From Thiobacillus sp. 65-1402 (GTDB lineage: Bacteria; Pseudomonadota; Gammaproteobacteria; Burkholderiales; Thiobacillaceae): a stretch of 56,324 nt of DNA. Where the stretch lies: the NCBI RefSeq assembly GCF_001897685.1, contig NZ_MKUG01000171.1:1-56324 (forward strand), given 5' to 3'. The translations under genes were made by a program, and so were the position numbers. Shown in pieces: positions 38,710 through 51,515 of this stretch (position 1 is its first letter; every line of letters starts with the position of its first letter). The notes under the pieces are model-generated. The model worked only from the letters and a program-made list of their open reading frames with translations, did not search any database and was not told the origin of the DNA.

Positions 38710-38975
38710 GAGGTTAGGAAGGTTGGGAGCAGGTTAGGAAGGGTGGAAGCCGCATAAACAGGGCTTGTTCCTAACCTTCCTAACCTTCCTAACCTGAAAC
38801 GAGGTGTTGTGTGTGTAGCGGGTGTTACGCACGCGCGTATACGTGTGCGTGCGTGCCATGCACGCGCTACGTGTAAGGAAAAGCAAAACAGGTTGGGAAG
38901 GTTAGGAAGGTTAGGAACCTCCTTTATCCATGCGGGATTCAGGCTTCCTAACCTGCTCCCAACCTTCCTAACCTC
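38710..38975. repeat. nested inverted-repeat iteron array, candidate phage replication origin
   Basis: Outer 32-bp perfect inverted repeat 38710-38741/38944-38975; inner 30-bp repeat (1 mismatch) 38767-38796/38889-38918; about 12 GGTTRGGAR units; alternating Pu/Py core 38827-38855. Confidence 0.85.
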
Positions 38976-38979
38976 GGGG

Positions 38980-41235
38980 CTAGAATGGCGCGGCATCGAG
39001 CCCTCCTTCCCCGGGTCGCACACCACCTACGCGCGCAGTTTCCATTGCCGGTGGTGCCGTTTCATTTGTCGCTGGATCAGAGTCCCTCTTCGGTGCCGTG
39101 TACCAGTAGCGCACCATGCCGTTGCGCTTTTCCACGCGCCCGCAGCCGAGCTTGCGCAGGGCGATGCCGATGCGCGTCTGCATGTCGCGGGTGAGCTTGC
39201 TGGCATCGATGACCTTCAGCCCCTCGAAGGCCGCCATGGCCACCGAGAACGGCTTGTATTGCTCGTATACCCAGTCGTGCAGCGCGTCGACCAGCGATTC
39301 GCCCTGCTCGCGCTTCAGCTGCTCGGGATCGAAATGAAGGCGCTGCTCTTCGCCCGTTGGGTAGAACCGCTCACCCTGCTGGTAACGCACGAAGGCCTCG
39401 GCGAACAGCTGGTCGCGCACCTTCGCCAAGCCGGAAAGATCGATCTCGCCGACCTCGATCGGCCAGAAGCGACGCCCGCCCGTCGGGTCCTTGTTCCATT
39501 CCCATTCGTTCGTGGAGCCGGAGAACACCGTCTGCCGTGGCACCTTGATCTGGCGCCGGCCATACACCGGCCGATATTCATCGATCTGGCGCGACAGAAA
39601 CGACTTCTGTTTGAGCGACTCGGTGCGGGCCAGCGATCCCAGCTCGGGGAACTCATACAGCCACTTGCCCTGCAGCGCCGCCATCGAATCCTTGTTGTGC
39701 AGATCGATGTCGGTGTCGCCGAACCACTCGCCGCCCAGGATCGACAGCGTGGTCGACTTGCCGCGCCCCTGGATACCCTCGAACACCAGGCAGTAATCGA
39801 ACTTCACCCCCGGCCGCATCACCCGCGCGATCATGCCGAGCAGAAACCACGCCGCCACCCGCTCCGTGTATTCGGTGCGCGCCACGCCGAGGTAATCTTC
39901 CAGCCAGTGATCGATGCGCGCCGTGCCGTCCCACCGCAGCGACTTCAGCCAGTCGCGCACGGGATGGAACGCAAACGCGCGCCCCAGCACCTCCACCGCC
40001 TCCGCCACCATGATCGACGACGGCGTGAAGCGATACGTCCGCGCCAACCACATCGCGGTGCGGCTATCGTCGGTGCCGTCCCACTCGCCGGCCATGCCGC
40101 CCTCAAAAGGCGGCGGCGCACGCTTCACCGTGCGCTGAGCGAATTCGTCGAACGCCAGCACCCCCTGCCACGAAGGATCGTTGAGCAGGATGTCGTACAC
40201 GTTCGCCAGGCAGGCCTTCAGGTCGCCCTTGTCGTACAGCAGTTTCTTGCGCCAGTCCGGCATATCGTCCGGCAGCGAGGAAGCCTTGCCCCCCCCACCG
40301 GGCTGCGCCCGCGCCCGTGATGCTTTCGGCGGCTTGGGCGGAGACCAGCCGGCATCCATCGCCAGCTTGAAAATCGTCGCCCCCGTCACGCCCTTGCCCG
40401 GCTCGAAACTCTTCCAGTGCGTCGCCACCTGGGCGCTGCCGGGATACTTCGCCGACTTCGCCGACCAGGCATCGAACACATCGCCCGCGCCCGTGCCCAG
40501 CTCCGAGCAGATCGCCATCCCGATGTGAATCCAGTCGTCGTAGCCGCACTCCGGCGAAATGAACGCCAGCGCGCTCTCGACCTTGGCGCGGCCCTCCAGG
40601 GCTGGCGCCGGCGCAGTGGATGGCTTGCCGGTGGCCGCGCGCTTCTTGCCGCTCTCAACCGTCGCCTTCAGGCGCTTCAGCACCTTCTCGGGCAGCGGGT
40701 TCACCTCTTCCGGCGTGGCCGGATAGCGCTTGCCAGTAAACGTGAAGAACTGGCGCCCGCAGAACACCTCCACGCCAACCTCGTTCGACTTGAACGTCTC
40801 CGTCTCGCCCGAGCAGATGATGTGCACACCCTTGCCGCTCGGCGAGAACTCCGTGTAGCTGTTGCAGTTAGCGATGATCGCCGCGCCGCGCTCCGTCATC
40901 AGCTCCGTCGCCGGATCGAACATGCCATCGAGGTCCACCCCGATCAGGCCATCCCCCGGCAGAAAGGCGAAGCCCACGCCCGTCCAACGACTGCCAGCCT
41001 TCTCGACCGCCGCCCGCGCCGTGGCCAGATCGACCAGCGCCGCCCGATCCGCGTCCGAACCCTGCTCACCCGTGCGGCGCGCGCCGGAAACGTAATACGG
41101 CACCTTGCGCGGCTTCTTATCCCCCGGCTTCGACTCGAATCGCCACACCAACCACTGCGCGCGCGCAGCCAGCGTGGGGGGGATCGCATCGAACGCCACG
41201 GCGTTCAGACCTGCTGTATCTGTCTTGTCCTGCAC
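38980..41235 (-). CDS. phage replication protein: PrimPol-like N-terminus plus VapE/VirE-type helicase
   Basis: AQWLVWRFESKPGDKKPRKVPYYVSG, GLIGVDLDGMFD, CGYDDWIHIGMAICSE (PriCT-like), CLVFEGIQGRGKSTTLSILGGEWFGDTDID. Confidence 0.88.
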   Translation of the reverse strand: MQDKTDTAGLNAVAFDAIPPTLAARAQWLVWRFESKPGDKKPRKVPYYVSGARRTGEQGSDADRAALVDLATARAAVEKAGSRWTGVGFAFLPGDGLIGVDLDGMFDPATELMTERGAAIIANCNSYTEFSPSGKGVHIICSGETETFKSNEVGVEVFCGRQFFTFTGKRYPATPEEVNPLPEKVLKRLKATVESGKKRAATGKPSTAPAPALEGRAKVESALAFISPECGYDDWIHIGMAICSELGTGAGDVFDAWSAKSAKYPGSAQVATHWKSFEPGKGVTGATIFKLAMDAGWSPPKPPKASRARAQPGGGGKASSLPDDMPDWRKKLLYDKGDLKACLANVYDILLNDPSWQGVLAFDEFAQRTVKRAPPPFEGGMAGEWDGTDDSRTAMWLARTYRFTPSSIMVAEAVEVLGRAFAFHPVRDWLKSLRWDGTARIDHWLEDYLGVARTEYTERVAAWFLLGMIARVMRPGVKFDYCLVFEGIQGRGKSTTLSILGGEWFGDTDIDLHNKDSMAALQGKWLYEFPELGSLARTESLKQKSFLSRQIDEYRPVYGRRQIKVPRQTVFSGSTNEWEWNKDPTGGRRFWPIEVGEIDLSGLAKVRDQLFAEAFVRYQQGERFYPTGEEQRLHFDPEQLKREQGESLVDALHDWVYEQYKPFSVAMAAFEGLKVIDASKLTRDMQTRIGIALRKLGCGRVEKRNGMVRYWYTAPKRDSDPATNETAPPAMETARVGGVRPGEGGLDAAPF

Positions 41236-48837: not shown

Positions 48838-49860
48838 ATGCACACACTCGAAAAACCAAACGCGACACCGTCGCAAGTGTTGAACGGCACCCAGCCCAAG
48901 CCCAAGCTGCTGGAGCAGATGCGCGCGGTTATCCGCACCAGGCACTACAGCTACTCCACCGAGAAGACCTACCTGCACTGGGCCAAGCGCTTCATCCTGT
49001 TCCATGGCAAGCGCCACCCGGCCGAGATGGGCGCGCCCGAGGTCGAGGCATTCCTCTCCGCGCTGGCCACCGAGCGCAACGTCTCCGCCAGCACCCAGAA
49101 CCAAGCCATGCACGCCATCCTGTTTCTGTACCGCGACGTGCTCCGCGTGGATCTGCCATGGCTCGACGGCATCACCCGTGCCCGAACGGCCAAGCGCCTG
49201 CCCAGCGTGCTCACCCAGCAGGAGATCGCCGCCCTGCTCGCACACGTCAGCGGCACCAACGGCCTCATCATCAAGCTGCTCTACGGCACCGGCATGCGCA
49301 TCAAGGAGTGCCTGCGGCTGCGCATCAAGGACGTCGACCTCGCGCGCCGCCTCATCACCATTCGAGAAGGCAAGGGCAACAAGGACCGCGTCACCATGCT
49401 GCCGGCCAGCTTGGTTGAAGACCTGATACAGCACATCGACGAGCGGCTCCGCTGGCACAACCTCGACCTATCCACCGGCCACGCCGACGTCGAGCTGCCA
49501 GACGCCATCGCCCGCAAATACCCGCGCGCCGCGTCCGAGTGGGCATGGCAATACGTCTTCGCCGCGCCGAGCTACAGCACCGATCCGCGTAGCGGCAGCG
49601 TGCGCCGCCACCACTGGAACGAGCGCAATATCCAGCGCGCTGTAAAGGCCGCTGCTCAAGCAGCCAGAATCCACAAACTGGTGCATCCGCACACCCTACG
49701 CCACAGCTTTGCCACCCACCTGCTCGAAACCGGATCGGACATCCGCACCGTGCAGGAACTGCTCGGCCACAGCGATGTGAGCACCACCATGATCTATACC
49801 CACGTACTCAACCGGGGCGCGTGCGGCGCCACCAGCCCGCTTGACAGGATCACAGCATGA
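48838..49860 (+). CDS. intI: integron integrase (IntI family tyrosine recombinase)
   Basis: IntI-specific insert [44 protein letters not shown]; catalytic [36 protein letters not shown]. Confidence 0.95.
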
Positions 49861-50321: not shown

Positions 50322-50599
50322 CCACCCCTGCCCTCACCCGCCAGCAGCTCTGCGCGGCCCTCACCATCAGCGAGTCCACCGTCCGGCGGCTCGAACTGGA
50401 CGGCATGCCCTATACTCCCGTCGGGATCAGGGCCAAGCGCTACGATCTGGAAGAGTGCAAAGCCTGGCTGCGGGAGAATCAACCATGTCAATCTGGACAG
50501 ACAAGAAGGGACGCCGGCACGTCGGCATTATGGTCGACGGGCGCCGAGTTCACCGCATCCTGCCGCAAGACGCAACTGCGGGTGCTGCCAAGCAGCTAG
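50318..50599 (+). CDS. small HTH/excisionase-like DNA-binding protein
   Basis: LTRQQLCAALTISESTVRRLELDGMPYTPVGIRAKRYDLEECKAWLRE; immediately upstream of integrase. Confidence 0.7.
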   Translation: MTTPALTRQQLCAALTISESTVRRLELDGMPYTPVGIRAKRYDLEECKAWLRENQPCQSGQTRRDAGTSALWSTGAEFTASCRKTQLRVLPSS

Positions 50600-51435
50600 A
50601 AGCCGACCTGCGCGCCGCGCTCGCCGTCGCCAAAACGCCGCGTATCCCCAGCGACCCGCGCCTTACCGAAGTCATCAGCCTGTACGTCGCCCACGCCGAA
50701 ACCCTGCGCAGCACCAAGACCGCCCTCGACCACGCCCGCCGCATCGCGCTCTGGCTCGAAAAATACCGCGCCAGTCAGGCCCGCCAGGCTGCCGCCCACA
50801 TCGTCAAGGACATGGCCGGCCACTACGCCGCCGGCACCATCAACCGCAGCCTCGGCACCCTCAAGAAAGCCCTGCGCCTCGCCTGGGAGCGCGGACTCAT
50901 CCCCGTCGATTACAGCGCTCACGTCAAGCGCCTGCCCGAGAACAACGCCCGCAGCACCTACCTCAGCCTCGACCAGGTGCAGTCCATCGCCAGCCATTGC
51001 AGCACGCCGGTGCAGGCCGCCATCTGGACCGCCCTGCTCACCGGCGCTAGGCGCGGCGAAATCGTCAAACTGCGCCGCGAAGACATCGGCCGCGACAGCC
51101 TCATCATCCACGCCGGCAACACCAAGACCCTGCGCACCCGCACCGTGCCCATCGTGCCGGCCCTGCGCCCGTGGCTAAAGCACTTCCCGCTCGAAGTCGG
51201 CATCGAAGGAATCAAAAGCGCCTGGCGCCGCGCGCGCGAAGACGCCGGCATGCCCGACGTCAACTTCCACGACCTCCGCCACAGCTGCGCCAGCATCCTC
51301 ATCGCCACCGGCGCCGACCTCTTCACCGTGTCCAAGATCCTCGGCCACAGCAGCGTGAAAACGACCGAGCGCTACGCGCACATGCAGATCGAACAGCAGC
51401 GCGACGCGATGCTGCGGGCGTTCAAAGCCAAATAG
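50485..51435 (+). CDS. int: phage site-specific integrase (tyrosine recombinase)
   Basis: LLTGARRGEIVKLRRED, HDLRHSCASILI, ILGHSSVKTTERYAHM; adjacent to attR. Confidence 0.93.
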   Translation: MSIWTDKKGRRHVGIMVDGRRVHRILPQDATAGAAKQLEADLRAALAVAKTPRIPSDPRLTEVISLYVAHAETLRSTKTALDHARRIALWLEKYRASQARQAAAHIVKDMAGHYAAGTINRSLGTLKKALRLAWERGLIPVDYSAHVKRLPENNARSTYLSLDQVQSIASHCSTPVQAAIWTALLTGARRGEIVKLRREDIGRDSLIIHAGNTKTLRTRTVPIVPALRPWLKHFPLEVGIEGIKSAWRRAREDAGMPDVNFHDLRHSCASILIATGADLFTVSKILGHSSVKTTERYAHMQIEQQRDAMLRAFKAK

Positions 51436-51440
51436 GGGAA

Positions 51441-51515
51441 TGGTGGGCGGTACTGGGATCGAACCAGTGACTTCCACCGTGTGAAGGTGGCACTCTACCG
51501 CTGAGTTAACCGCCC
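51441..51515 (-). tRNA. tRNA-Val(CAC), phage-carried, intact
   Basis: rc GGGCGGTTAACTCAGCGGTAGAGTGCCACCTTCACACGGTGGAAGTCACTGGTTCGATCCCAGTACCGCCCACCA; all four stems perfectly paired, CCA encoded. Confidence 0.96.

Follow-up and report, generated by a model that had tools for sequence, protein, structure and literature searches.

An inverted array of twelve iterons beside a VapE-type primase-helicase gene: a probable prophage replication origin in Thiobacillus sp. 65-1402

Described origins and the array beside VapE

The alpha protein of phage P4 is a fused primase-helicase with a C-terminal winged-helix domain that binds short iterons at the origin; P4 has two separate sites, ori and crr, and its iteron differs from the unit described below. 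In Streptococcus phage Sfi21, a non-coding origin of 302 bp is annotated immediately 3' of the gene for a D5-type primase-helicase. In satellites of the SaPI/PICI kind, an iteron origin lies directly 3' of the initiator helicase gene (PMC7581432, PMC6092414), and arrays of satellite initiators in that position act as origins in a plasmid test (PMC6092414). The Cch2 protein of SCCmec is proposed to be a self-loading helicase that binds, through its C-terminal domain, AAGTG repeats downstream of its own gene (PMC7581432). Here we analyze an array of inverted iterons in a contig of Thiobacillus sp. 65-1402 (NZ_MKUG01000171.1, positions 1 to 56,324; the whole stretch of 56,324 nucleotides is the window). 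The array is very probably the replication origin of a temperate phage (prophage), with the adjoining VapE-type primase-helicase as its initiator. This is the best supported reading because the layout accompanies the gene of the VapE helicase in several phyla, because the letters of the repeated unit track one residue in the DNA-binding domain of the helicase and because the helicase half matches PriRep1; on the same grounds, the suggestion of a phage replication origin made in the sequence-only reading of the window is supported.

As in the SaPI/PICI rep-ori, the array lies immediately 3' of the gene for a helicase, here the proposed initiator, two sets of iterons flank a core, and the helicase is PriRep1-like, with a C-terminal DNA-binding domain (here a predicted winged helix). 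The window differs from the satellite origins in that its core is not AT-rich and consists instead of a GC-rich, alternating purine-pyrimidine tract, in the fixed layout of 12 units with 36-bp offsets, in an initiator type that is fused to exchangeable primases, and in its carrier, which is not a satellite: genes for terminase subunits and for a tail-completion protein are part of the element itself. Like the Sfi21 origin, it lies 3' of a helicase gene and has short repeats in inverted pairs on either side of a core. However, the Sfi21 helicase has Pox_D5/DUF5906 domains and not VapE, its units are fewer and weaker, and its core is AT-rich. The Cch2 site has only three short direct repeats, without the symmetric 6+6 layout, and the iterons of phage lambda lie inside the initiator gene (O), whereas the array of the window lies outside, 3' of the helicase gene. 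The earlier view that the locus resembles neither the lambda nor the P4 origin holds, but the closest known kind, the SaPI/PICI rep-ori, was overlooked there. The known kind is a rep-ori 3' of a helicase gene, and the present arrays appear to extend it to many full-size phages across several phyla.

The array and the helicase in the window

The array occupies the gap between the 3' end of the VapE-type gene and the next small gene, and is made of 12 units of 9 bp, six on each strand, in four blocks of three (3+3, core, 3+3):

38710 to 38741, + strand: outer block distal to VapE, with units at 38712-38720 (GGTTAGGAA), 38721-38729 (GGTTGGGAG) and 38732-38740 (GGTTAGGAA); an equivalent block is found in relatives
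38767 to 38796, - strand: inner block distal to VapE, three units with a 9-bp period (38768, 38777, 38786), facing the outer block at a 36-bp offset
38795 to 38890, no strand: core between the inner blocks, 96 bp, with an alternating purine/pyrimidine run and short A-rich edges
38889 to 38918, + strand: inner block proximal to VapE, with GGTTGGGAA at 38891 and GGTTAGGAA at 38900 and 38909
38944 to 38975, - strand: outer block proximal to VapE, with units at 38945-38953, 38956-38964 (GGTTGGGAG) and 38965-38973

Direct comparison bears out the arms given in the sequence-only reading: the outer arms (38710-38741 and 38944-38975) form a perfect inverted repeat of 32 nt and the inner arms (38767-38796 and 38889-38918) one of 30 nt with a single mismatch. 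The count of six units per strand and three per block was also right, with ten of the 12 units matching GGTTAGGAA at no more than one mismatch and the other two (GGTTGGGAG) at two mismatches. Beyond the earlier description, the two nested inverted repeats are a single symmetric element around the 96-bp core, with fixed offsets of 9 bp within the inner blocks and 36 bp between facing outer and inner units. The whole window holds 13 matches to the unit at one mismatch or fewer, against 3.15 +/- 1.78 in shuffled sequences, none of which reached 13. With the array ending at 38973-38975 and the stop codon of VapE at 38980-38982, the gap is about 5-6 bp, and the array indeed abuts the replication gene, as had been claimed. 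It is present in one copy in its own genome, and was not found in 59 related genomes.

The features of the adjoining gene that matter here are:

38980 to 41235, - strand: VapE-type primase-helicase, the proposed initiator, with PriCT-2 at residues 220-292, the VapE helicase at 430-634 and a C-terminal winged helix at about 646-715
39106 to 39108, - strand: codon of Tyr710, in a wing strand, the residue that predicts the unit letters (from covariation and predicted structure)
39151 to 39189, - strand: predicted recognition helix of the winged-helix domain (residues 683-695; predicted structure)

In the predicted structure the C-terminal winged helix has a mean pLDDT (predicted local distance difference test score) of 91.5, and residue 710 (model residue 392) sits in its second wing strand. 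The best fold match of the helicase half is PriRep1 with double-stranded DNA (PDB 7PDS; E 1e-30), which we take to be the initiator protein of a SaPI; by profile, the match to chain A of 7PDS, a record named 'Similar to D. nodosus vapE', has an E value of 5e-86. NrS-1 PrimPol, the primase-helicase of SaPI5 (7OLA, weaker) and vaccinia D5 follow as fold matches. The carriers of the array have only the C-terminal half of the protein in common; the primase half is exchanged: that of the window is of the PriCT-2 type, L009 has a CHC2-type zinc ribbon, and other types occur elsewhere. L009, L024, L008 and the window VapE have the same helicase/winged-helix half, unrelated primase halves and an unchanged origin array.

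Layout, core and residue 710 in relatives

Relatives of the locus were sought from both sides. On the DNA side, viral contigs were scanned for exact GGTTAGGAAGGTTAGGAA, which gave 31 stretches, all but four of them with the layout. One locus (L013) runs off the end of its stretch; at all 26 complete loci the 3' end of VapE abuts the array and the gene points into it. The four matches without the layout (L014, L022, L026, L036) are chance arrays with no VapE nearby, and serve as negatives. On the protein side, relatives of the helicase were taken by protein similarity regardless of DNA, together with cultured phages. These are bimodal, with about a dozen GGTTRGGAA units or none, and most of the loci without such units have the same kind of layout in different letters: GGTATGGAA or GGTGTGGAA in betaproteobacterial loci, GGGTCCGGG in alphaproteobacterial ones, TTGTTCCCA-like units in acidobacterial ones, TGACGCA-like units in Acetobacteraceae, and further types in phages of Marinobacter, Bacteroides, Corynebacterium, Staphylococcus and Listeria. 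With a single generic score for inverted iteron arrays 3' of the gene, 97 of the 109 close loci and 43 of the 74 at mid-distance exceeded the 99th percentile of 387 control windows, which came from the same loci and are mostly coding. Thus the search for arrays beside VapE genes of other phages, proposed in the sequence-only reading, finds them from either side. BLASTN of the array against phage records gave no match, because only the layout and the short units are conserved.

The loci from viral and genome collections partly overlap, so non-redundant sequences were used for the covariation counts. In all 90 non-redundant close relatives the inner blocks are three minus-strand and three plus-strand units around a core of 54-102 bp. 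The constant part reads one plus unit, three minus units, core, three plus units and one minus unit, with a 9-bp period, and the facing outer unit lies mostly at 36 bp, sometimes at 35 bp, in nearly all of the 90. The orientation of the outermost two units on each side varies, and the fully symmetric order (three plus, three minus, core, three plus, three minus) is found in about 10 of the 90. The modal number of units is 12 (51 of 90), and the median distance from array to gene is 13 bp. L087, L094, L117 and L285 have different units, yet again 12 of them, in 3-3 order on each side. In the alphaproteobacterial L087, L094, L096 and L117 there are 12 GGGTCCGGG units with inner and outer blocks co-oriented, and the core is GC-poor in most; judged from sequence, the alphaproteobacterial arrangement is a second geometry of the same 6+6 plan. 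Two loci, L199 (Pseudomonas phage Haddon) and L303, were negative at the gene end, and a sliding scan placed the array about 300-375 bp further on. In Haddon, whose host is the laboratory Pseudomonas strain PA14 and which is thus easy to work with, the array is made of inverted TGTCCCACT units and is found about 385-650 bp beyond the stop codon of VapE, one gene further downstream than usual.

The core of the close relatives is a GC-rich alternating purine-pyrimidine tract, unlike the AT-rich core of known origins. Its GC fraction is 0.54 in the window and 0.62 on average across 96 close relatives, and its length in close relatives is 81 +/- 10 bp. The longest strictly alternating run measures 31 nt against a control median of 6 (measured on L118, a record in opposite orientation whose VapE is 100% identical to that of the window), and averages 27 nt against 6.5 in control windows across the close relatives, of which 92 of 96 exceed the control 99th percentile. 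Several alphaproteobacterial relatives (L087, L094, L100) have a GC-poor core instead. Tracts of this alternating kind favor the B-Z transition under negative supercoiling.

A fixed list of seed units served to assign loci to two unit types, GGTTRGGAA and GGTRTGGAA, so that loci with other units lie outside the test of residues against letters. Across 429 alignment columns in the 90 non-redundant relatives, the column of Tyr710 in the window is the only one that splits the two types without error (mutual information 1.00 bit, against 0.46 for the next column and a maximum of 0.38 in 200 shuffles). Tyr in this column accompanies units whose positions 4-5 read TA or TG, Arg is found strictly with TG, and units that read AT or GT come with Phe, His or Ser. 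The helicase tree calls for at least 13 to 14 switches of unit type, and the phylogenetically independent supported pairs all agree, 7 of 7 (p = 0.016) and 8 of 8 (p = 0.008). In trees of the C-terminal domain alone all pairs agree as well, but supported branches are so few that the sign test is powerless. Held-out loci that had not been chosen by motif obey the rule in 8 of 8 cases (L213, L216, L217, L228, L263, L265, L278, L286), as do the motif-chosen loci. L152 (RFWY) and L159 (RYWY) are 76% identical in the helicase half, and their unit types differ as the rule predicts. The next-best covarying columns (492, 725, 600, 569 and 411) fail the independent-pairs control. The end of the gene and the array may have recombined jointly, yet the link between residue and letters would still stand because the letters follow no other residue of that domain.

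Proposed origin firing, alternatives and meaning

We propose that VapE contacts the 9-bp units through its C-terminal winged-helix domain, in which residue 710 of the wing would read unit positions 4-5. A half-array of six units would gather the six C-terminal domains of one hexamer, and the inverted halves would set two hexamers head to head, the helicase loading itself. The core, lying between both hexamers, would then be opened by the helicase, and the fused primase would begin synthesis in both directions. Possibly, the alternating purine-pyrimidine core, prone to a B-Z transition or to unstacking under negative supercoiling, takes the place of an AT-rich element. What the comparison of the loci establishes is the layout, that it goes with the helicase gene, and that residue and letters covary. 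Several points weigh against the origin reading: counting and analogy are the basis both for loading a hexamer on every six units and for the part given to the core; GC skew in the window marks no origin at 38.8 kb, although gene orientation confounds skew; and no array is detectable within about 340 bp of the VapE end in L054, L076, L200 (Variovorax phage VarioGold) and the L267-L273 lineage.

Other roles for the array have to be weighed against that of an origin. The stretch could be transcribed at the end of an early operon and act as RNA, as a giant terminator or processing hairpin. It lies 3' of a gene, and in its entirety folds as a single hairpin (z = -15.6). However, the outermost two units flip freely in most relatives, so that the outer hairpin is broken with unit letters and offsets unchanged, and the letters covary with a residue of a protein; we therefore think an RNA element very improbable. 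That the units are operators, bound by the helicase chiefly to regulate transcription of neighboring genes and not to start replication, also seems to us highly unlikely. The covariation in itself argues for helicase binding alone, and the array is located between two operon segments, but 12 units and a special core exceed what an operator needs, and the arrays that homologous initiators of satellites have at this place act as origins when tested on plasmids (PMC6092414).

A packaging (cos/pac) or terminase site at the boundary of early and late genes would agree with terminase genes that start about 1.2 kb away (37482 and below). Yet the array tracks the helicase, to which the covarying residue belongs, and not terminase: in phages of Bacteroides, Listeria and Corynebacterium, genes for nucleases and helicases come next. 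This leaves the explanation a slim chance at best. The long inverted repeats might also suggest a dispersed repeat, or an element like a miniature inverted-repeat transposable element. This can be regarded as refuted, since the array is single in its own genome and absent in relatives, and the full layout is always beside VapE wherever the contig is long enough. Scattering over unrelated contexts, which the sequence-only reading had named as the observation that would speak against an origin, was looked for and is not what the scan shows, the only stretches without the layout (4 of 31 with the exact doublet) being those without VapE.

Elsewhere in the window, an integron integrase is encoded at 48838-49860 (+ strand; TIGR02249, 465.7 bits against a cut-off of 265, full length), and is apparently a prophage-borne intI. 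Near it lies a second tyrosine integrase (50488-51435), which adjoins a tRNA at 51444-51515.

The prophage origin proposed here may also stand for a widespread class of phage origins, a generalization that we regard as evenly balanced. In such a class the helicase oligomer would set the number of units (6+6, for a double hexamer); residue 710 (Tyr or Arg against Phe, His or Ser) would set their letters, origin identity switching repeatedly by joint change of residue and array; and a GC-rich, Z-prone alternating tract would replace the AT-rich unwinding element. In open-access text we found no paper with the exact unit sequence, and searches there on VapE with iterons, on Z-DNA with phage origins and on Sfi21 gave nothing on this origin class, its novelty being judged on open-access text only. 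VapE genes, called 'virulence-associated', are common in prophages and poorly explained. If the reading is true, the phage VapE module would be a replication initiator with an adjacent origin, residue 710 would give a one-residue prediction of the unit letters, and the question is raised of how a GC-rich alternating tract can serve as the site of opening.
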